Assembly (NCBI GenBank): GCA_028554645.1
Contig: JAQOOI010000022.1
Coordinates: 2,232,001-2,296,000 of the forward strand
Direction of reading: 5' to 3'
DNA from: Omphalotus guepiniiformis
Taxonomy: Eukaryota > Basidiomycota > Agaricomycetes > Agaricales > Omphalotaceae
Length of the DNA stretch: 64,000 nucleotides
The position numbers were made by a program, and so were the translations under genes. Below are positions 34,403-48,106 of the stretch, in pieces. The notes beneath the pieces were generated by a model that searched no databases, was not told the DNA's origin, and was given only the letters and a program-made list of their open reading frames with translations. How positions within the stretch are numbered: the stretch's first letter is position 1; each line of letters opens with the position of its first letter.

Positions 34403-35132
34403 CTAATTCAATTCCTTCTCAATGTCACTATCCTCCAAAGCTCGTTTATTGCTGATGAGTTCCTTGTCGTCATCTTCCCCAACTTCTCCTTCCCAACCAT
34501 GTGCAGCAAGGTACATCATGAATTTTGCGTCTTCATCTGCTAAATCGACGCCTGTCATGTCGGGAACGAAGAAATATGTGACTAAAACACCAGTGACACC
34601 ACAAATGGCAGCGATAATGAATGTCCACCTATTGAGAGTTGGTGAATGTGAGGGAAGGTTAGCACCTAGAGGCGTACCGCTTGCCCAGATTATTCTGGAT
34701 TGGCGTGAACGCCTGCGTTCCTATGGCTGCACCGGTCTTACCTATAGCAGCTGAAAGACCATAGCAAGTACCTCTAAGGCAATATTTGAGCTCGATATGA
34801 ACAGGGTATGTAGTATGAGTTTTTACCGGATGGGTGTCGCATATGACCTTATGTTTGTAGATCAGTGGATAGGACGGTTATGAAAAGGTAAAGCACGACA
34901 CACTCCGCGCTGACCAGTCCCAGCATGTCACCAGGCCCCTGCAAACTAGGATTAGTTTCCATACCCGAATCTGAACCTTAACATTGTCGCGTACCAAGTT
35001 TCCGAATGATTGCATCAGACCATAGCTTCAACGCCATTAGTGCAGTTCAAATTGAACAATCGATGTTCACTCACAAGACAACGAACAACGGAATTATCTT
35101 GGTGATCTTGTCATAACTAAGACCGATGATCA
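34403..35132 (-). pseudogene. MFS phosphate/glycerophosphodiester-type transporter, C-terminal half (severed)
   Basis: Minus-strand exons continue the transporter that starts at 48106. Just left of the mobile element the frame reads GLSYDKITKIIPLFVVL, then AAIGKTGAAIGTQAFTPIQNNLGKR, and WTFIIAAICGVTGVLVTYFFVPDMTG, with a cytosolic tail (WEGEVGEDDDKELISNKR) and stop TAG at 34403-34405. All of this belongs to the GIT1/PHO84-like branch of the major facilitators. Apart from the insertion the exons look intact. Without its N-terminal half it has no promoter or start and is presumed inactive on this chromosome copy. Confidence 0.85.
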
Positions 35133-35397
35133 GCCCACATAAACCATCAAATTAGACGGAACCATCCGCCGCGTGGTTTCCGTCTAGTTAGACGGCTTAC
35201 CGGGCATCATGCCTTTCCTCTGAAAAACGGCTCGCAATTTAGGGGACTTGAAGCTTTTGAGAGTGCTCGGGTAAGTAAGGTATGGGTGTCCTGTCATCAA
35301 CGTGCTGACGCACGACTCGTCACGCGTCTCGCTTCTCTCCCGACCTTTCCGACCACCGTCCGTACCTCTCCGCTCGTCGTCGAGCTCGACGAGCTCA
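35133..35397 (+). repeat. Left terminal inverted repeat of the KDZ element
   Basis: Pairs with 46088-46349. Differences seen: one extra base in each of three short runs (35178-35180 region, the A-run at 35223-35227, and a C near 35352) plus one substitution near 35234. It contains internal hairpins: repeated CCGTCTA / TAGACGG arms at 35152-35195, and a palindrome around 35371-35396 (ctcgtcgtcgagctcgacgag). Confidence 0.88.
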
Positions 35398-35464
35398 CTG
35401 TAATCTGTCAAATTTAGAAAGAACCACTTCAAATGTATAGTTAATATATTTCTAATATAAAAGG

Positions 35465-38400
35465 CTACACATTTGGACTATCGTTCGATACACTAAGGGC
35501 ACTGATCAACTTAATAGCCTCCTCCTCCTCCTCCTCTTCCTCCTCCTCCTCCTCCTCCTCCTCGTCGTGCTCCTCTTCATCGTTGGCAGCAACGGAAGGT
35601 TCTGCTGGTATGCTGGAGCAGACCTTGTTCTCCAATGCGACAGAGATCCTTGACCAGGGGTTAGTGTTTCGCGAGGAAAGGCAGGATATTTTTCAGAAGC
35701 TTCTGCAGGCGTGTTGTATGCAACGCGAAACAACGCCCACGTCGTTGTCTATATAGAGCAACCTGGTACGCAAGGGTAGGGTTGTTCTCTCGGAATTCCT
35801 CCTCTTTTGCGAGCAAAAACGCAGCTTCATCTTCAATGTACGTTATGAGGGGCGCCGTATCTCTATCTGCAGCCTCTCAATTTCCTCAGCAGCCCGTTGT
35901 GTCTTGAAGTATTGATCCATCGCAGCACGTCCAGCCGGTGTTTTGCCCAGATTTTCTCCCGCACGTCATTCCTTGCATCACGAAGGAGGTCAAACTCGGC
36001 AAGGAACGTGTATTCGACAATCGTATCCCAATCGAGTGGAGGCGGGGAGGGGAGAGTTGGGCGGCGGCGGCATTGTAGTTGGCAAGTGCTGTTTTGATAG
36101 CTTGCGACCTGGCCTTGAGTGCCTTTCCTATATGCTTTCGTAACTTATAACCTTGTGATAGGCTGTTGAGATGGTATTCTGCGAGACATTGAAAGACTCA
36201 CCTGTTTGAGACATATTCATCCGTGTTAGCTCGAACATGCGAGCCACCACTAGCCCTTCTAGTCTATCGAGGCAGCGCTGATAGGTGGAACGAGCCACCA
36301 GCTTCTCAGCAGCTATCCACTCCTCCGAGCCCTCCATCCACCGGTCTTGAGGTGCGATATTCAAGCGCCATTCCATATCAAGCACGGCCTGCTTTGCATC
36401 ATGGTAGGGCTTCGTAGTCTCGTCGGCGTTGTTTCTCGATTTCATTCACCTGCTGTGATTCCTCTCTTGTTGACCCACTTGCGACTGTCTGCTCCGTGGT
36501 ATTGATCCATATAGTCTTCGTGTTGGAGTACTTCAACCTGTAAGAACATTCATATTAGTATTTCGAGAGCATTCGCAGGTTCGAATATACGTACTGTGCA
36601 TCCCTTAGCCTGATGAGCTTCTTGTAATATTCCATCTGGAGAGTCCTTCCTCTTCAGGCTCCTTTTTCAGCGAATGAAGATATAGCCTTTCCTCCTCCAA
36701 CCAACCCTCTACCTGCTGCGGCTCTGTTACGCCGATTGCATTGAGCGAACGAAGCATGGTTTGCTCAGTTCCCAGAATCTCCACTGCTCGCTTATAGCTG
36801 ATTGAAAGAATCTTGCTAACCTGAGGGAAGGTCTCGAAATCGTCCATGTGGCGTGCGTACACTGCGATCTCTTGATGACGATGGAAAACGCTGGCATGTC
36901 GGACAGAGCTGGCAAGTGCATTGGATCTAGAGAAGAAGGACTCGCAACCCTCCAGGTCTTCGAGCCCTGGCCTTTCACATATGTTCCCAGGTTATTTGTT
37001 TGGCAAAGTCGAGCGTGCCCATGTCCGTGAAATATCCCAACCAAACTTTGTGTAGTTGTGAGACTTCGCGAGGGCTGCCAGGGGGCTTGTGACGGACAGT
37101 CGACCCGAACTTGCAGCCAATGTCGTAACCTCCGCCCAGACCATTACCGAGAAGACGAATGAGCTGGTTGACGATTGCGAGGGGATATTTCGACCTGTAA
37201 ATACCAATTAGTTGAGTCTTGATATCCGCAGCGGCGACTTACAATTCCCCGCTTTGAACCATGTCAGCGATGAGGAGAATGAATCCATGGCGACACAGAG
37301 AGAGAAAGACGCCTGTCTCATCATAAATTGACCACATTTTAGACGTGTTGGACTCCTTCATGTTGTGCCACCGGTCCTCGCATGAGTTTTCCTCCTCCTC
37401 CTCCACATCCTCCCATTCGTCCCAATTTGTCCTATCCCATCGGTCAACCTCAGCACGGCTCAAAAAGTAATCCAATCCTCCAATGCGTGAAATCCAAACG
37501 CTCCTTCGACGGCCCCAAACCAGCCACTAAGTTCCCATCCTCATCAACACCAGCATCTCGGCGTTTGAAAACGTTTCAGCGAGTCATTGCCATCCATCGT
37601 GAAAAGCATGCTGAATTTGAGCTCTTTCTCCCCCTCGAGCTTATAAAGACAGCATGGACAAGCATTTTTTAGACGCCAGTCTGATGAGTCTCGTCCGAGT
37701 GCAGTCTTGACCCGTATATCGACACGTCGCTGCACCTCCAGATACAAATCGTAGGCGATAGAGAATTGGTGATAGAAATACGGCTTGTACGGGCGACTGT
37801 GAATGTCACATAAGCCCTTAACAAACGATTGGATTGAAAGACGAGGTGCTCGTACATGAAGAACCCTGAAGAGCTCGAGAGTGCGAATAGAAAAGCCAAG
37901 GGAGGCGTCGGATGGGGCACAGGGGAAGAATCCATGTCGAACGAACGAGGAAGACACGTAAGGATCCTTTTTGTCATCAATATAGATGCATTGCTTTCTG
38001 GACACCTGTAGTACATGTCAGCTAGTTCAGAGTTTTTCAATGAAAAGGGAGATGTACCGAAGAGATCTGCCCCAGTGACTACTACGAATGCAACTCCGAT
38101 AGTGTTGGTGTTGTAGGGTCATGGGCCATGCTTGAAGCAACCCAAAGACGCACTCCATTCCATATATGACTGCACCATTGAGTCGTACTGGGGCGCAAAA
38201 AGCCAGGTTACGTCTTTGAGTACGGTCTCTTCGTGTACGGTAGTCCACGCGTTTCCTACACGGACATAAATATCATGTAGCTCATAGGATATCACCAAAA
38301 CTCACCTTTTACCTCGCAGTTCTTCTTGAAGTTCTAAGATAATATCTCCAAATTCCCCCCCCTTGATGACTGGTCTCCATAGTAGTATCCCAGCCAAGAC

Positions 38401-38637
38401 ATCCTCCAGCTGTTGATTACCCTCGAATGTCTCGCAATCGAAGCTATCGTCGACCGCCATAAATTCAAAAACATTCGGAGGTGCGTCTGAGATTTGCAAA
38501 GCTGCTTGCTCCTTGATTTGCGTGATCTCCTTGGGCTTATACAGGCGCGATGTAGCGGGACGAGTGCTTATTCCAGCGCCTCCAGATATGTGGCGTAGTT
38601 TTTTTGAGCTTCTGTGACGATTTGCATTCTTGCCCAT
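35465..38637 (-). pseudogene. KDZ transposase, frameshifted
   Basis: Conserved blocks of mushroom KDZ transposases appear in order but in changing frames. They are: MGKNANRHRSSKK start (38637); RTRRDRTQRRNLAFCAP; DSSDWRLKNACPCCLYKLEG; MDGNDSLKR; SKMWSIYDETGVFLSLCRHG; GYDIGCKFGST; IFHGHGHARLC; LEDLEGCESFFSRSNALA; VHRHQEIA-like; EGLVVARMFELTRMNMSQTG; WDTIVEYTFLAEFDLLRD. It ends in a Glu run encoded by a GAG repeat (about 35518-35565). Breaks seen: single-base indels in short runs at 38190-38193, 37564-37566, 37490-37492, 37043-37045, 36965-36967, near 36640 and near 36430, with more near 35990-35860, and one TGA at 38119-38121. Not functional as read, unless the indels are assembly errors. Confidence 0.85.
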
Positions 38638-38699
38638 CGTTGACGATTGACGCAGTGCGCGTAGCACTTGAATAACAGAACGCGCGCGTGGCACGTGAC

Positions 38700-40739
38700 A
38701 TGGCAAAACCACTTGTCGCTACTGATCAACAACTTGTCAACTCTACACTCTACACTCGCGTCGCCGCTTGTAAGTCGTTCATACCCTCATCTCTTCTTAC
38801 CATACAACTATCAGAAACCGTTCTACATAGAGGGCATGATTTCAATGCGGAATCGTTCCCGGGTCCAGGGAATCATGCTGGCTATGTGCAATGGCTCTGG
38901 TAATTGTATGGCAAGAAGAACGTTCCTTCATATACTTCAAAACGTTTGATGCTTGCGAGTTCTCTTAGGTTCACAATGGGTAACACGAGAAAAGTACGGT
39001 ACTCTTCTTGCATGTGAGTTTGTGCTAAGGCGCTCCTTCTCTAGCTACGATCTGGAAAGACCTACGGAGACTTCGACTGGCGTGCTGAGCTGAAGGTATG
39101 CACGCGTCTTTAACCGTTGACGTCGAGTCATGCCCCTCTCTTGAAGCCCTCTTGGTTCGTGCCCTGGATAATGAAACGAAATCGCCTGATGAGGAGCTGG
39201 AAGCATTTGATGATGGCGGGCAAGAGGATCGGCAGACCCAATCAGCGAGACGACAACCGCAGCGGAAGAAACCACCACCACTCCCGACAAAGAACGATAG
39301 AAAAACGCGATGCGCCAAATCCCGATGGCAAAAAGTTCAACCCCCGTCACGCAAAGCGACGTTGTCGACGAGCTGCCGAATTCGAAGCATCAGGCCACTT
39401 GCATGCGAATAGAAGCGATGCCCTCGACTCCTGTCAACCATATCCCACCGACGTTGACGTTGAGGATCTGCGTGCAGCAGCCGGTGGATTTGTGGGTGTC
39501 GACGCAGAGTACGTTGGCGCGAAGAATATTCACACACCACTGTGGCGTCATGAGAATGGATTTCGCTATGTGGAATGGGAGGGGAAGTGAGTACACCCAC
39601 AATTCGTCATGTGAGATTATCTGCTCAATAGGACGTAGCTATGCGATACCAATCGTCGACTCCAAAAACCGTCTTTTTGCTGTTGCCGTGAAGAGAATCA
39701 AAGAGGTAGGATATCAACGTGCCGTCGAGGAAGCATGCGCAGCTCTGGAGAAAGCTCGCGCCGATACGACCTTTGAGCCGAAAGAGAAGGAGCATAAGCG
39801 CGGTGGCTTCCCCGCAGCTGCATTTGGTTGGTCTATTGGACAGGGCCAGAAGCGTCCCACCCACACTGCTGGACTGCGAAAGGATCTTATGCAGAAGCTT
39901 GTTGAATTGCCGTGCTTTCAGCGAATTGCTGCTGCGCAGGATGGTACGTCCCGGGATAATCGCTTGGTATGTTTACTGATAGGATGGGTCAGCTGCATTC
40001 GCCTATTGGTCTCCAAAGAATTATGTGTACTATAAAAAGAGCATGGATGAATTGAAGCAACGTATTCCCCACTTCAAACTGAACTTCGACCGGAGCATCT
40101 TTGCTTGCATCACTTTAAAAACTTCGGCCCTCGGACTTGCACCTATATTCATACTGACACGAAGAACGCTGTCCACGGTATGTGTGCTATCACTTCAGGT
40201 GGTAGCTACGACCATAAAAAGGGCGGCCACTTGATTTTGTGGACTTGAAGCTTGTCATTGAGTTTCCACCTGGTTGCACCATCTTGATTCCCTCCGCTCT
40301 TCTCCGTCACTCCAACACCCCTGTGCAGGATGGAGAAACGCGCTACTCCATAACCCAGTACACTGCTGGAGGAATCTTTCGCTGGCTTGAGTATGACGGA
40401 AATACTGAGAAGCAGCTGGTTCAGAAGCGGAAGCGCGCCTTGCTTAAACGCCTCTTCGACGAGCGGGGTAAACGCTGGGCTAAGATGGTTGACATGTTTT
40501 CAACGTTGGATGAGCTTCGCACAGGACCTATAGTAGTTGTATGCCTATATACGACTGATCTTATCACAGCTTGCGATCATGTACACGTATTGTATCTGAA
40601 TAATCTCTGTATCTGGCTCTATATGTTGATTCAGAGTGAACTATTGAAGTATAGTTGTATGTCCGAGATGCCCGACGTTCGAGAGCTCAACGTGAATAAC
40701 AATGAAAGCAGCATGAGTATTCATCGTAACATCTTCTAG
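38700..40739 (+). pseudogene. TET/JBP-family Fe(II)/2-oxoglutarate dioxygenase, frameshifted
   Basis: The family oxidises 5-methylcytosine or thymine in DNA. Starts 62 bp from the divergent transposase. Upstream blocks: AESFPGPGNHAGYVQWL, SGKTYGDFDWRAELK, and GGFVGVDAEYVGAKNIHTPL with the following block RSYAIPIVDSKNRLFAVAV. The dioxygenase core carries NFGPRTCTYIHTDTKNAVHG (HxD: His 40150-40152, Asp 40156-40158), GSYDHKKGGHL, FPPGCTILIPSALLRHSNTP (distal His 40308-40310) and Arg 40341-40343 (ETRYSITQYTAGG) for 2-oxoglutarate. Two frame breaks inside the core look like single missing bases, at the T run 40114-40116 and the G pair 40241-40242. The N-terminal exons also do not join cleanly. All catalytic residues survive, so it is either a very young pseudogene or an intact gene with sequence errors. 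Confidence 0.78.
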
Positions 40740-41538
40740 CTGGGTGAGTAGAGTCTTGGATACTCAATACACAGTCTTAAGTCTTTACATACTGAGTTCT
40801 CATTCATTTTGTGAGTGGTACATGAAGTCGTTACGATCATAGTCAAGTATCCTACTTATACCTTAGACAAATTTGTATGTTATGTTGTTTGATTTTTGTG
40901 TAAGTCACTCAATCTCATGATATATGTACAGAGACCTCAGATCCAAGATTTTATTGCAAAATTTGTTCATTTACACTCACTACAACCTTGTAAGTACCAA
41001 ATGTAGAGGGTCTTGCAAGTCATCTGTAGAGTCTACAGAGAGTTCCTGAGCATTGAGGATTGCTATATACACTGTATATACATCCATAGGCTCTCTAGAC
41101 TCATTTCTCTTATGGATGCCACTCACGATGAATTCAGTATTACTTGGGAACTTTACAAAAGAAATACTTGATTATTATATCAATTGTACATAATACACGG
41201 TTAGAAAAAGTGACATAAGATTCGTATTGACACTCCTGAGGTCCTTGAATGCAGTTTACTCTATGTCTTTGTCAATCTGAGGAAGTTGAGGCCAAAGTGT
41301 GGTTGACAGTCGGAGTACAAGCAGGAGCATATACCTTTTATGGACATGTCTGTTTGTCATTACTCTCTCGCGCAAACAAGAACTTCAAAACTTTCGGCCA
41401 CTTCAACCTAGTCAGCACCATACAGAAACTACAAAATAGTTTCCTATTACCTGCTTCATGTCTCAAATTTAACTGAATGCCTACACAGAGAAAGATGACA
41501 AGATAATTTATTCCTCGGCAAAAATACAAGAATATCTA
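40740..41538. other. AT-rich spacer inside the KDZ element
   Basis: About 0.8 kb with no supported ORF between the TET/JBP gene and the minus-strand cargo gene. It presumably holds their 3' ends. Confidence 0.5.
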
Positions 41539-42861
41539 CTATTCGTCGTTGTCAAAATTGAAAGGAGGATCCCAGGCTTGGACTCGATCGGCCATGTATT
41601 CACGCACAAAGAAAGCATTCGCGTCTTCGACTGTGAAGAATACCTGCAACGCCCCTCCACCCCATCCGAGACCTTCTCGAAGTGCCGCATGCCTGGAGAA
41701 AACAGTGGCCGTGAGCTTCAAAGCAGACAATGAATAACGAAAATAACAGAACGTACACATTTTCATACACTCCAGGGTTGACACCTTGAGTAATTACCCA
41801 GTAGTAGACTATGTCAGGATTTGAAGGAACTGAGTTGAGACGTTCGATTACACCACTTTTACAGGCTTGAAGGTAGGCTGCCTTCGCTGTCGGGTAGGAG
41901 AAAAATCCCTTGAATACCCCACCTTTGTTCTTGTCGGCAGAGGGAATTTGAGACCTGAAGGAATAAAATGAGACACTCTGAAATGAAAAAAAATTGCCCA
42001 ACACACATACCATGATGAGAAAGCACCATGCTTGGAGCCACGATAGAGTACGTAGGCATTCCAGCCTTTCTTTGAGGGAGAGCGCTGTGGAGTCTGGTGA
42101 ACCGGCCGCGATGGAGTCGAAGGAGGCGACTTAAACTTGTAGCGGGGTAGCTGTGGCAGCTTGGAGGGAGAAGCTGGTATTTCTTTTGAAGTATGCAGAG
42201 TGGGACGCGCTGCCGCAGCACTTGACTCACCAACCACCTCATGAGAGCGACGTAGCTGGTCTCGACGGCTTTCATTGACCGCGCAATGCAGCTGCGCTTG
42301 TTCGAACGTATGTTTGTCTTCGTCGTCATCGGTTGTTTCATCATCAGTGGGAGGTTCATCTGTTTCTGACGGGGAATACAGTTCATCTGTAAGGACTAAT
42401 ATTACCTTGAGTAACACACAAAATAAAACAATCCATGACGACGTACGAACTTGAAGCTGCTCCATTCTATCAGTCAAGGCAGCTGCAGACAGTGTGTGTG
42501 TACTTAGTATTACCCGCATATGAAAAGAATTAAGAGCAAGTACTCACCAAGATGTTCCTGGCCATCCTTTTGCGCCCTCTTCAAGTCTTATGCCGGTAGC
42601 ACATTGAAGTCAGAGTTATACATTCGAGCATTAGCAAGGAACGTACCAGCAAACATGTCGGACAATTGAGTTGCACGCAAGCGTTGACCTACGCAGAATG
42701 TCAACCATTCAGAACACAGATATATGAACAAAAAAAAGTACCGTGACGAGCCTTGGGCCTGAGTTTTTCCGACCTTCCCTTCCCTTTTTCTTTGTCTTTT
42801 CCTGAAATAAAAAACATCTATGAACGGAAGATCAACATGGCAAGTAGCACGTACCTGCCAT
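41539..42861 (-). CDS. Protein with RNase H1 N-terminal (viroplasmin-like) domain, element cargo
   Basis: Start MAGKDKEKGKGRSEKL at 42861. Small exons follow with a helical segment (TQLSDMFADLKRAQKDGQEH, then LAALTDRMEQLQ), an acidic DDETTDDDED tract and a Ser/Pro-rich basic linker. The C-terminal domain reads WNAYVLYRGSKHGAFSSW, then GGVFKGFFSYPTAKAAYLQA, and HAALREGLGWGGGALQVFFT, ending FDNDE at 41539. The YVLYRG..GAFSSW...FKGF pattern is the fold that in RNase H1 binds RNA-DNA hybrids or double-stranded RNA; here no RNase H catalytic domain follows. About 290 residues, seven introns, no break seen. Role in the element unknown; nucleic-acid binding is inferred from the domain. Confidence 0.72.
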
Positions 42862-43217
42862 TCAGTCTTGAGGTATGATGGGGGGAAGAAAGAGAGAGAG
42901 AAAGTCGGAGTCGAACTCGAACATGGAGTAACTAACAGAGGGATAACCGACCAGCGCTACCATGTGGATGGGCGCTTTCATGCTTATCAGCGATAACACC
43001 TGACCAATCTTTGAATTTGTAAGCACTTATCTTTTATCACCACCCGTCATCACAACATCACAACATGGGTCGGCGTCCGCTTGCAGGGAAACACGACAGC
43101 GACGCGTTTCAGCGCGTTTCACGCAATGAGCATCGCGGTCAAACGTGACTTTGTTGAGCGAAACTTTGTGAGTGCTTACACATTCAAAACTGGCCTTGCA
43201 CGCTCATCTTCATCCTC
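42862..43217. promoter_or_regulatory. Divergent promoter region between the two intact cargo genes
   Basis: 356 bp between opposing starts. It contains gcg-rich near-repeats around 43090-43115 (acgcgtttcagcgcgtttca). Function inferred from position. Confidence 0.35.
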
Positions 43218-45763
43218 ATGCCAGCCGATTTAATCAACCTCCTGAACCCTTCAGTCTCTGAGCAGCCATCATGCAATGAATATCTCAAGTCAAACACACA
43301 GGCCTTCACCGAAACCTCCGAGTACCTCCCCCACAACTACACCTCTGATCTTTCGTTCTCGACAGCTGGGCCGTATGCTCAGTCATGGGGCACCACCAAC
43401 AATCACGTTGATCTTCCCTCAATGCTGACATGGCCTCTAGACCATCACTCTGCTCATCTTGCTGGCAGTCTATACCAGCCGGATGCCGCCTTCGACGCGC
43501 TCAATTTCGAAAACTTCCACTTTGACGACTTCAGTCACAATGACTTTGGTCACAGCATTGCGGCACCCCATAGTAACTCAGACTATACACCTACCGCCTC
43601 TGTCAGCAGCAATAGGGTGCAGGAAAACCATACTTGCGATGATGTGTACCCCTCGTCTTTCCTATCCTCCCAAAACGACTTCATTTCACCTACATCTTCT
43701 GCACCGAAAACTCCTCCGTGCAGTAATTTCAGCACCTCACCCTCTACACACAATCAAGTTGCTTCAGACGTGGATGCTGTATGCGCAAACTCAACAGAAG
43801 CCCCGATTGAGTTTGTGAACACGTTCGGACCTGCACCAGCCCGTCTACCACCTTCAAGGAACGATCTTATCCCTCCTAAACCTTCTCAACCAACGCCAGC
43901 CATCAACCCTGATGCTGCAGGCTCTCAGAATGACTACCTTCCCCCTGCACCTCCTCGCACTTCCTACAATGTTCCAATTACGAATGGGACACAACCACCT
44001 CGTGCGCCGACGCAGAAACGCATGCTAACGGAGGCTGAGAAAGCTTCGAGGGCTTTGAGCCGAGCAAATATCAAGGCCTTGCAGGATCAGCTTGCTTTGG
44101 ATATTAAGGAGGCAACCGGTGCCTATGAAGAACGTCTGCAGGAAATTGCTGACAAGTACAGCTATACCCTTGACAAGGTTAAGGGTATAGCTAATAATAT
44201 GTCTCGCGCAAAGGGCAAGAGGGCACCTGCGGCCCACAATGCCCTTCTTCATTTCGCAAGGAAGGATTTGGTTGCTAGCGGGAGTGCGTGGTTCATACTT
44301 TTATCCAAACCTCATTGCTGATTATTGTGGTTCAATAGAGCTCGCCCCAGGTGCACCAATGCCCAAATTACAGGAGTTACGCCACATCATCAACACAGAC
44401 GAAGACTACCGAAAGCTGCAAGAGGATACGAAGAAGATTGAGGAATTGAAACAGGAGCTCGCGGAGGATCGTGCACTCAAGGAAGTCGGTGTGCGAACGT
44501 CAAAAGTATCGGTTCAGCAGGACGTACGAAGCACCTTTGACAATGCTATGATGGAGGTGAGTGTACTTTTCCAAGCAATGCAGCATAGTGTATCTAACAC
44601 GGTATAACTAGCTGATCATGCTCTCAAAGCGTACTGGAGCCAAGTCATTCCTCTACGTCACCCGGGGAACAGCAAATTGCTCATCTGCACCAGCATTTGG
44701 GACCTCCGACGATACAGTGGAGGACTTCTTTCGCGAGCAAATGAAAGTCGATCCATGGAACCTCTTATCAATGTTCGAACTATGGTCTATTTCTAGAGAC
44801 GTATCTCGTGAGTACTTTTGGTACCGTCCGGTCTTTAAATACTGTCTCAAAGGTTGATTTAGAGATACGACCCAAGAATTCATCAGAATGGCGAACCGAA
44901 TGTGTATCAATGATCAATGCTGGCCTCCGTGAGTCTCTATGTTCTCTCTGTGCGCCGTATATTGCTGAAAATGCAGGTTTCACACTACAGGTCAAATTGT
45001 TCGTAATCCAGAGTTACACATGAGCTACGACAGGTATCGCACAGCGATTGTGCAGACCTATCATGTCCGACTCATTGGCTGGCCGTTCAAGGAGGAATCG
45101 AGCAACGATGACGCTGGCGAGCCCCTACCAAAGCTCATAAGCCCTCATCGTATCACTTCCATGGAGGATGTACGCCTCCTGCATCATCGCCTCAAGACGG
45201 GAACCTGTCGGTGGGAGCCTATGACAGCCAAGGATGTGGATCAGGAGATGGAGGAATACAGGAGGTTGAAGGACAGTGGCAAGTCGTCGTCACATGGCTC
45301 TTCAGGAAATAAGAAGAGAAAGAAAGGTGAACGGGGCAAGGATAAGGAGAACGGAACGTACAGAGATATTGGGGAAGGGTGTGCCGGTAGCGATGATGAT
45401 AACGACGATGACAACGATGACAACGCCCTTCATGAAGACACCAATTCTGCTGCACGTTCTACTGCGAGGAAGAGGCGACGTACGAAAGAGACGACAGATC
45501 ATGGCCTGCGGAAGTCGACGAGCAAGAAGGCGAAGCAGAAAGTCAGTCAAGGAAGCCGAACGAAGGAATCATCTACGACACGGAAGCCTGCGAGGAAAAA
45601 GACACGCAAAGCAGATGCTGCTGCCCAGCTACCCCCAACGTACAAGAGTAAAGAGTTCGTTGATAGTGATAGTGACAGCGACGAGGACGACGTCAACGTC
45701 AACGTCGAGACGGGCCTTCGCAGCGGTGGAGCCGGCGCTGACAACGACAACGACACTGCATAA
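43218..45763 (+). CDS. Long nuclear-looking cargo protein of unknown function
   Basis: Start MPADLINLLNPSVSEQ. About 760 residues in five exons, no frame break. The first 270 residues are rich in Ser, Pro, Asn and His. A helical charged segment follows (KASRALSRANIKALQDQLAL, then EERLQEIADKYSYTLDKVKG). A conserved-looking middle has APMPKLQELRHIINTDEDYR, then FDNAMMELIMLSKRTGAKSF, and MSYDRYRTAIVQTYHVRLIGWP followed by a TCRWEPMT block. The tail alternates Lys/Arg-rich and Asp-rich runs (KKRKKGERGKDK, DDDNDDDNDD, ARKRRRTKE), typical nuclear signals. I recall similar multicopy proteins in mushroom genomes near transposons but know no function. Its intactness next to broken element genes is notable. 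Could be a DNA-binding accessory factor; unproven. Confidence 0.75.
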
Positions 45764-46087
45764 GCAGCCCCTCGACTTTGTCTCCCTGCCCCCATTACAC
45801 ACTCAAAAATCTTCACTCAATCCCTTCCCCTGCCACTGCCATATACCATCCTCACTGTGGCCTTACATGGTCAATAGATAGTTGAAATAAATATGCTTTC
45901 AGTCTTATTTTAACCAATGATGCAAGTAATCCTTCAATTACTCCTAGAGAACAGTGTGTTACATGAGAATAAGAGCTATTAAGTCCACAAGTATAGCTTG
46001 AAAGGTACGAGGTTGAGCTTATAGTGCAGGGGAAATCTTATTGGAGGTGTAGAGGTGAAATATAAGGAAATATAAGGAAGGAAATGT
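45764..46087. other. 3' spacer of the cargo gene
   Basis: 324 bp between the cargo stop and the right terminal repeat. Nothing recognised. Confidence 0.4.
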
Positions 46088-46349
46088 TGAGCTCGTCGAG
46101 CTCGACGACGAGCGGAGAGGTACGGACGGTGTCGGAAAGGTCGGGAGAGAAGCGAGACGCGTGACGAGTCGTGCGTCAGCACGTTGATGACAGGACACCC
46201 ATACCTTACTTACCCGAGCACTCTCAAAAGCTTCAAGTCCCCTAAATTACGAGCCGTTTTCAGAGGAAAGGCATGATGCCCGGTAAGCCGTCTAACTAGA
46301 CGGAACCACGCGGCGGATGGTTCCGTCTAATTTGATGGTTTATGTGGGC
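46088..46349 (-). repeat. Right terminal inverted repeat of the KDZ element
   Basis: Reverse complement of the left repeat with four small differences. Followed by TGATCA, the filler GGTG and the 17 bp direct repeat copy at 46360-46376. Confidence 0.88.
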
Positions 46350-48106
46350 TGATCAGGTGCTAAGACCGATGATCAGACCTGTAAATGTTTCAATAAAGAC
46401 TCTATGTGACGGAGAACGAAGTGTTACCAAAAACCAGATAACCGCTGAAACCAAGCATCATCTTGAGATTGCATGCCCTTTAGTATCTTTAGCACTCATA
46501 TGCATGGGGATCTTACAGTGTTTCTACGGCCAATTTTATTACATAGCCAAGCACCGCTGTGGACAGATCGAGTCAGCACAAGAGTGGGTAGGGAAATTAA
46601 GATATATTACACAAAAACACCTGGCAGCGCAATTGTCCCTAAGAGAAGCTGCCACTCCGCGGTAGACTTGATATTGCTATTCTTGATTACGCTGGATATG
46701 ATTGTGCCAGAGAAAACGCCGTTGGGAAAAGTGACCTGACAGATTACGGTTAGAAGGTGATCACAATTAATTCGGTGCACAAACAAAATCATAGAGGAAC
46801 CTAGAAATAAGAGTCTTAGCAGCTGTCTATAGAGTGGGCCACAGGAGACTGACCAGGCACCACATGTTCCAATCAGTTCCTTCCAATATCGTTTCAACAC
46901 CAACACGTACGGAACTTGATCTAAAAGCAACGAATGAACAGCTTGGAAGACATGAACCAGGATGTAGAGCCTTACGCTTGATTGCGCCTTTGCGGTAGAG
47001 TTTGGGGCTCAACATCCTCATACGGAAGTAGAAGACCGTCAAGGGCAGAAGTATGCCTATCCCGAAACAAACACGCCACACCGTCCTCAAGTGATTCTGA
47101 CCGGCTGCGGACAGTACGATAAGAAAAACAGAAACCGCGAGAGGACCACCGAACTATCGAAAACTTCTTTGAGATAAAGCTAGCGATAGAATGAAATGCA
47201 CTTACGGAGAGAACGAAGTTCGTGACCATGACAAAAACTGTGCGAGCCATGATTATCTGCAGAGACGTTCATGAGATTGTGGTTACTCACCAGGCCCTCG
47301 ATTTTTCACCATTTTCTCATTGGCAGCTTCTGAGGCGCTAGTAGATGAGGCAGGGTACTCTCCGCCTACACCCTGAGCAGAAGTGAGCATGTGGTCGGAA
47401 AACGTCGATAAGCGTCCCTTACGATTCCTGTAATGCCTCTAGACTGTATTCAGAAGTCAAACTTTCAGTTACGGGAAATAAAGAACATACCTTGCGAAAG
47501 TTAAGAACCAGAAAAATCCTGCTGGAGTCTTTGCGTGAGCAGCTGTTGCAAGGATCGCACCCAAAACGATCATTCCCGTTGTTGAAACCAAAGCAACCTT
47601 TCGGCCAATTCGGTCGCAGATCAAGCCAACAAAAACCTGACCAAGGACTTCGCCTGAAGCCCAAATGATCAATGAGACGCGATAATTATAGAAGGGGGGT
47701 ACTGCAAGTTACCAACGAGCAAGGAGTTTGACACCCTAGTCGAGACGGAGGAAGTGTAGTCTTTGGGGTACAAGTCCTTGAAAACTACCTGCAACTCGCG
47801 TGAATAATAGAACCTAGGGAAAAGTTAGCAGGCCTTTCTGACATTAGCCATGGTCATGAGATTGTTCTGATCTGTATAGGTGTCAGTTGCATATTCGAAA
47901 CTAAGCAGGAAAGCACCGTTAGAGGACTTACAGCCATCACTAATCAGACCAAATGCTGCGGCGGCAATTGTGAAATAGGCACTGAGTTTCTCTTTGGTAG
48001 ACATGTCATGAGCTTGATTCTTGGCCTCATCCCCATGCTTCTCTGCTGTGACGACCGAATCTGACTTTCCCAAGAGAGAAGGCTGGGAGGGCATGGATTG
48101 AGCCAT
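46350..48106 (-). pseudogene. MFS phosphate/glycerophosphodiester-type transporter, N-terminal half (severed)
   Basis: Start MAQSMPSQPSLLGKSD at 48106. Exons give the first helices with ISDGYQNNLMTMANV, the loop VGEVLGQVFVGLICDRIGRK (major-facilitator signature), FLTFARGITGIGVGGEYPAS, NFVLSFGGPLAVSVFLIVL and a long central loop. Then come GTIALPGVFVGAWLCNKIGR, RNTMMLGFSGYLVFGLIIGLS, where the mobile element begins. The plasma-membrane proton symporter family takes up phosphate, glycerophosphoinositol or glycerophosphocholine. Coding text is otherwise undamaged, and the reading resumes exactly at 35133 on the far side. Confidence 0.87.

Follow-up and report, generated by a model that had tools for sequence, protein, structure and literature searches.

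We analyse here a stretch of 64,000 nucleotides from the mushroom Omphalotus guepiniiformis (C22:2232001-2296000, hereafter the window, whose positions serve as coordinates), in which a transposon of the KDZ family carries four genes: a KDZ transposase gene, a TET/JBP-type dioxygenase gene, a gene with RNase H1 N-terminal (RNase H1-N) domains and a gene for a long protein. On the whole, a class II transposon occupies window 35125-46359, with terminal inverted repeats (TIRs) of about 272 bp, 8-bp target site duplications and a KDZ transposase gene (Table 1). A strongly diverged relative elsewhere in this genome again has the four genes, with order and orientation unchanged. We consider it fairly likely that the element is a Zisupton-like member of the KDZ family whose three extra genes are genes of the element, with the TET enzyme likely oxidising 5-methylcytosine (5mC) on the element's copies.

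Table 1. Features of the KDZ element in window coordinates (putative exon structures for all four genes; ORF, open reading frame)
Feature	Position	Strand	Basis and remarks
Whole KDZ element	35125..46359	.	Inverted ends and alignment to the second copy on C18 (ends at 46359 and, altered left tip aside, 35127)
Left TIR	35125..35397	+	273 bp; outer tip altered, GA instead of CACC
Right TIR	46088..46359	-	272 bp
Left 8-bp target site duplication CTAAGACC	35117..35124	.	8-bp length matched at two further insertions
Right 8-bp target site duplication CTAAGACC	46360..46367	.	Pairs with the left duplication
KDZ transposase gene	35465..38636	-	Borders transferred from the ORFs seen in the C18 copy; probably about six exons; PF18758
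TET/JBP-type dioxygenase gene	39045..40531 (approximate)	+	Genome exon matches, homologues, fold of the closest homologue; first exon tentative
RNase H1-N gene, two tandem RNase H1 N-terminal-like (hybrid-binding) domains	41542..42387	-	At least three exons; upstream exon uncertain
Long protein gene	43218..45763	+	Several exons; ORFs and relatives

The outer tip aside, a single substitution and three 1-bp gaps separate the left and right inverted repeats, and the outer tips are fixed by a second copy (C18:1519214-1530427) as CACCTGATCAG...CTGATCAGGTG. Duplications of 8 bp are shown at three insertions, reading CTAAGACC in the window, AAACAAAA on both sides of the second copy and CATATATT around a 1.75-kb element at C22:717 kb. 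The left tip of the window copy, GATGATCAG (35125-35133, with CACC changed to GA), is identical to the host sequence beyond the right duplication, so that its first bases were probably replaced via the shared TGATCAG, in what looks like a repair event. When the element and one duplication are taken out, the flanks rejoin into an exon reading LIIGLSYDKITKIIPLFVVL. It lies between exons of which one, upstream and on that strand, has a Sugar_tr match above the cut-off (E 3.9e-6), and the C-terminal one gives a weak match below it (0.0016). Judged from these matches, the insertion target is an exon of a major facilitator superfamily (MFS) transporter gene, probably entered about 11 bases into the exon, provided that the preceding AG is the splice site. 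The paired ends, the 8-bp duplications and the rejoined exon between exons with Sugar_tr matches bear out the first-pass annotation, which had placed an element with both inverted ends inside a transporter exon; both ends are real, while the borders given there (35133..46349) lie 8-10 bp too far inward. With 721 bp of the right flank as query against the genome (42.5 Mb, 80 contigs), only the window itself is returned, and neither an empty site nor a second allele is found.

The presence of the ends elsewhere in the same genome had been set beforehand as a refuting test, and the search gives 8 end matches at 5 places, two each at the window, the second copy and the short element, and one each on C77 and C51. 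The element had been taken for a single copy, but the same ends are found on a near-complete second copy, on two partial copies and on a short non-autonomous element. The second copy lies at an unrelated site, is collinear with the window element over the whole 11.2 kb and is 98.9% identical to it (BLAST). It also carries the four genes between such ends, a combination whose absence elsewhere had been named as the other ground for giving up the annotation, which thus survives on both counts. On C77, a partial copy (106954-111630) holds the right part of the element, with 137 bp more at C77:126693-126829; this copy is split inside the RNase H1-N gene by an insert of about 15 kb, in which the portion read has integrase- and reverse-transcriptase-like ORFs (named by eye), and no left half of it was found. 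The C51 match extends over about 400 bp. The 1.75-kb element (C22:717086-718831) matches the transposon at its ends only, with about 90% identity, and is probably a related non-autonomous element that the same transposase mobilises.

The status of the extra genes can be judged from the diverged relative, at C18:237-251 kb. Searches of the genome with the RNase H1-N gene (10 rows) and the long gene (12 rows) reach only the window, the second copy at C18:1.52 Mb, C77 and C18:237-251 kb, and the last of these also carries a KDZ gene and TET exons, with order and strands as in the window (KDZ minus, TET plus, RNase H1-N minus, long plus). Overall protein identity is about 28-67% by gene and exon: the KDZ pieces are 33-63% identical, the TET exons 36-67%, the RNase H1-N protein 33.5% over 179 amino acids, with both domains and with introns at the same two places; of four pieces of the long protein tried, two give 33-45%. 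The excess at third codon positions between the two elements is strongest in the KDZ and long genes. The finding of the same order and orientation in so diverged a relative argues that the three extra genes are element genes and not chance passengers. The four-gene set has probably been kept since it is helpful to the element, perhaps by escape from host silencing. As far as searched, this conserved set is new; it is absent from the literature found, and an earlier description is possible, as the supplements of PMC12730594 and the paper of Iyer et al. 2014 fall outside the coverage.

The transposase is recognised by PF18758 on two exon frames of the second copy (E 5.8e-27 and 1.2e-38), and in the window copy the KDZ matches come in three pieces, two of them above the cut-off, which agrees with the KDZ transposase named in the first-pass annotation. 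Matches of the transposase to CxC1 and CxC3 are below the cut-off. The Zisupton lineage is characterised by 8-bp duplications and TIRs (PMC12730594), and both are found here, with TIRs of 272 bp. That paper gives a detailed account of two TET-positive Kyakuja families, both from Laccaria, and these differ in having 7-bp duplications and no TIRs. By its duplications and inverted ends, the element would therefore be a Zisupton-like member of the KDZ family of DNA transposons.

The TET/JBP-type gene, also named earlier, is confirmed by the fold of its closest homologue and by the catalytic motif. In profile A1, five of seven rows match PF12851 with a best E of 0.00019, the row shown in full being below the cut-off, and homologue P0003 has PF12851 as a precomputed domain. 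Searching PDB with A1 gives CcTet of Coprinopsis cinerea in the first place, and the match is weak (E 0.16), hence the membership rests on the fold, which is of the TET type in the closest homologue; the same search with A2 gives a low-complexity match only. Over the fold, homologue P0001 is about 13% identical to CcTet. A single-sequence fold of the TET paralogue L047 was poor (predicted local distance difference test, pLDDT, 47) and was discarded. For the metal triad HxD...H, the His and Asp are invariant and the distal His is retained in at least 90% of 78 aligned homologues. The second copy reads HTD at the metal site, not the HxE of PE-type TETs, and the distal His is present in the window piece. 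The best protein matches are from Marasmius and Stygiomarasmius.

It is of interest to compare the residues beside the metal site, which predict the base on which the enzyme acts. When aligned to CcTet, the second copy retains His326 and Asp328 and has Asn for Gly331 and Cys for Asp337. The motif is readable in 113 of 120 homologues (7 unreadable), and among them the metal-binding Asp is found in 112, Asn at position 331 in 111 and Cys at position 337 in 111. The TET subfamily of the element is thereby set apart from CcTet (PMC11040006; PDB 7vpn, 7w5p, 8jkk), which has Gly331 and Asp337, and likewise from the AG-type enzymes of Kyakuja, which conserve Asp337 (PMC12730594). In conventional TETs, the first place is Asn or Asp (Asn1387 in TET2), which holds 5mC and blocks N6-methyladenine (6mA), and the second is Thr or Ser, not Asp; a change of Asp337 in CcTet eliminates 5mC oxidation (PMC11040006). 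Since Asn at 331 is as in human TET2, the enzyme of the element is predicted to act on 5mC and to lack 6mA activity. As far as searched, this Asn/Cys subfamily is new, and its signature separates a large fungal subfamily from CcTet, the fungal TET with solved structures.

The other two genes were also rightly described in the first-pass annotation, one as encoding an RNase H1 N-terminal domain and the other a long protein with a basic C-terminal part, which is borne out by its ORFs. The first RNase H1-N domain matches PF01693 above the cut-off (E 3.1e-6, 27.8 bits against a cut-off of 21), while the second, uncalled by Pfam, was read by eye and recurs in the diverged relative. The best PDB match of this protein is a solved RNase HI N-domain, weak at E 0.21, and no catalytic RNase H domain is found in the 242 amino acids scanned, the upstream exon lying outside the scan. 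A search of the genome with PF01693 gives three rows at two other places on C22 and passes over the gene in the element, since the domain is interrupted there by an intron. In the long protein, a Ser/Pro/Asn-rich N-terminal part is followed by a helical and charged core (by eye) and a C-terminal part rich in Lys/Arg and Asp/Glu, with nothing above the cut-off in Pfam.

The association of KDZ and TET genes was reportedly first noted by Iyer et al. in 2014. When search rows are merged at 3 kb (98 rows for KDZ; 117 for TET, with 110 of 114 candidates scored), the genome has at least 55 KDZ loci and at least 65 TET loci; 25 of the latter have a KDZ locus no more than 8 kb away, whereas 1.3 are expected under random placement.

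Several known systems resemble the element in part. Complete TET-positive KDZ transposons of mushrooms have been described, with escape from methylation proposed as their role (Kojima 2025, PMC12730594), and therefore the claim that a fully delimited TET-carrying KDZ element was little known is preceded by that work. These elements of Agaricomycetes (Kyakuja and Zisupton) are alike in joining a complete KDZ element with a TET/JBP gene, and Zisupton has 8-bp duplications; the main text does not mention an RNase, and the same family may be present in its supplements. The function of TET/JBP in transposons is stated there as not experimentally validated. In Cryptococcus neoformans, KDZ1 is similar with about 11 kb, 241-bp TIRs and 8-bp duplications, and its movement has been shown (PMC12810828). 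In the parts of that paper covered here, no TET gene is named for KDZ1, KDZ2 or KDZ3, their transposase has a CxC1 domain, and a single methylated CpG is given for KDZ1, in only one or two copies. TET-positive KDZ elements with ends and moving KDZ elements of similar size and ends are already published; the window element is a real and well delimited addition to them. The KDZ elements of Marasmius oreades (PMC8290104) also belong to the mushroom group and have a characterised TIR motif, and no TET-carrying four-gene element is named in the part of that paper covered. Outside fungi, the VANDAL transposons of Arabidopsis are alike in being DNA transposons with their own counter-silencing protein, VANC (PMC10398659, PMC5735166), a likeness by description; VANCs differ in being described as sequence-specific binding proteins.

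In the interpretation that we favour, the transposase would move the element by cutting and pasting, and probably also the short non-autonomous element with the same ends. The TET/JBP-type protein would oxidise 5mC on the element's copies and so make transcription possible for a time, the two-domain RNase H1-N protein may have RNA:DNA hybrids or double-stranded RNA as its ligands, and the long basic protein could act in the nucleus as a co-factor in transposition or in the escape from silencing. Oxidised methylcytosines are enriched in transposable elements of two other mushrooms (PMC8889193), which fits TET action on elements in general. The recurring three extra genes, the near-identical copies with exact ends and the short non-autonomous element would allow the escape idea to be tested one gene at a time.

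Several observations weigh against this interpretation. The diverged relative is known from its gene content and order and not as a set between ends, and the third-position excess is weak for the RNase H1-N gene. Pfam gives no match with E up to 0.1 for the TET protein of the element itself; no homologues of the RNase H1-N protein were found among 669 candidates, nor of the long-protein core among 274, where the query was a piece, so that the length filter drops full-length relatives. Furthermore, no copy is seen with all four frames open: small indels interrupt both the KDZ and the TET frame in the window copy, and the second copy, with long KDZ frames, has at least one TET frameshift and, in the long gene, an 11-bp deletion followed further on by a 2-bp insertion relative to the window. 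Finally, 36 of the 49 substitutions between the two long copies are transitions, 24 of the 36 at CpG (22% of C/G sites are in CpG, p 1.3e-8; a few substitution columns beside indels are doubtful), and in the right part (41685-46359), where three copies polarise 44 changes, 31 are private to C77, all of them transitions and 24 at CpG. This excess makes the copies look still methylated and decaying. The observed/expected ratio for CpG is 0.92 for the element, 0.87 for its flanks and 0.48-0.70 for four pieces of the relative. The simplest reading would be that copies are CpG-methylated and decay whether or not the TET gene is present, and the earlier idea of a shield against host methylation is thus weakened, not refuted.

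The broken frames of the window copy may be an assembly error. MAFFT gives 46 indels between the two long copies, 42 of them left of position 41000 and 4 right of it, with 33 and 16 substitutions respectively (BLAST counts 42 mismatches). Among the 42, extra bases are in the window copy in 31, and 19 fall within the KDZ gene span, introns included; the left inverted repeat alone has 3 indels against the right one. Indels outnumbering substitutions on the left, together with the sharp border, look like unpolished sequence, and the left half (35125-41000) is possibly unpolished assembly, with true decay as the alternative. The first exon of the long gene has a frame of 387 amino acids in the window and C77, and two shorter frames in the second copy.

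How the extra genes would work can also be read in other ways. It is quite possible, although not what we favour, that the RNase H1-N protein and the long protein assist transposition, as co-factors in terminus binding or complex assembly, and that only TET acts on silencing. A second DNA-binding protein is known in some DNA transposons, such as the Myb/SANT protein of Nuwa (PMC12730594), and the long protein has a basic C-terminal part and stays with KDZ; however, Pfam scans recognise no DNA-binding domain, and the two genes are not found at other KDZ loci (E up to 0.001), so those transposases may not need them. The sequence does not separate a co-factor from a counter-silencing role. Rather doubtful is the proposal that the TET-like enzyme makes another modified base, by 6mA chemistry or by further modification of hydroxymethyl bases, instead of removing 5mC: the ongoing CpG-transition decay would suit it, but the nearly constant Asn at 331, as Asn1387 of human TET2 (PMC11040006), speaks for 5mC. 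A more elaborate version of the interpretation we favour seems unlikely, namely a packaged, multi-layer counter-silencing set in which the transposase moves the element, a TET2-like enzyme erases 5mC, a protein with two hybrid-binding domains removes or blocks the RNA intermediates that re-direct silencing, and the basic nuclear protein brings both to the element; such a unit would be inherited over a long time until host methylation finally wins, as the CpG decay of older copies suggests.

That the three genes have no role at all and were caught by transduplication is quite improbable. KDZ can do without TET, since at 30 of the 55 KDZ loci a TET locus is lacking within 8 kb, and frames are damaged in every copy read; against this stand the order and orientation kept in the diverged relative, the third-position excess in the long gene and the metal-binding His and Asp, invariant in the 78 aligned TET homologues. 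That the stretch is no more than nested elements piled up by chance between two copies of the ends is hardly credible, even though KDZ matches are abundant in the genome and the C77 copy is itself split by an insert with retroelement-type ORFs: the second copy sits at an unrelated site, has an 8-bp duplication of its own and is collinear over the whole 11.2 kb, which already disfavours such a pile, and the gene order recurs in the relative.

Besides the KDZ-linked genes, the TET loci next closest to that of the element after the diverged relative are those at C76:434 kb, C12:620 kb, C36:84 kb and C19/C63/C78/C27, with 55-65% identity over the catalytic part. No KDZ is found within 10 kb of them, and none of the 32 rows of Plavaka (PF18759) lies beside C76:434 kb, C12:620 kb, C36:84 kb, C19:686 kb, C63:983 kb, C78:757 kb or C27:122 kb. 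Two ORFs beside the related TET genes match no Pfam family. At C76:434 kb, C12:620 kb and C36:84 kb, each TET gene is accompanied by a similar gene that converges on it and has no Pfam match, and these KDZ-free TET genes could be carried by another type of element.
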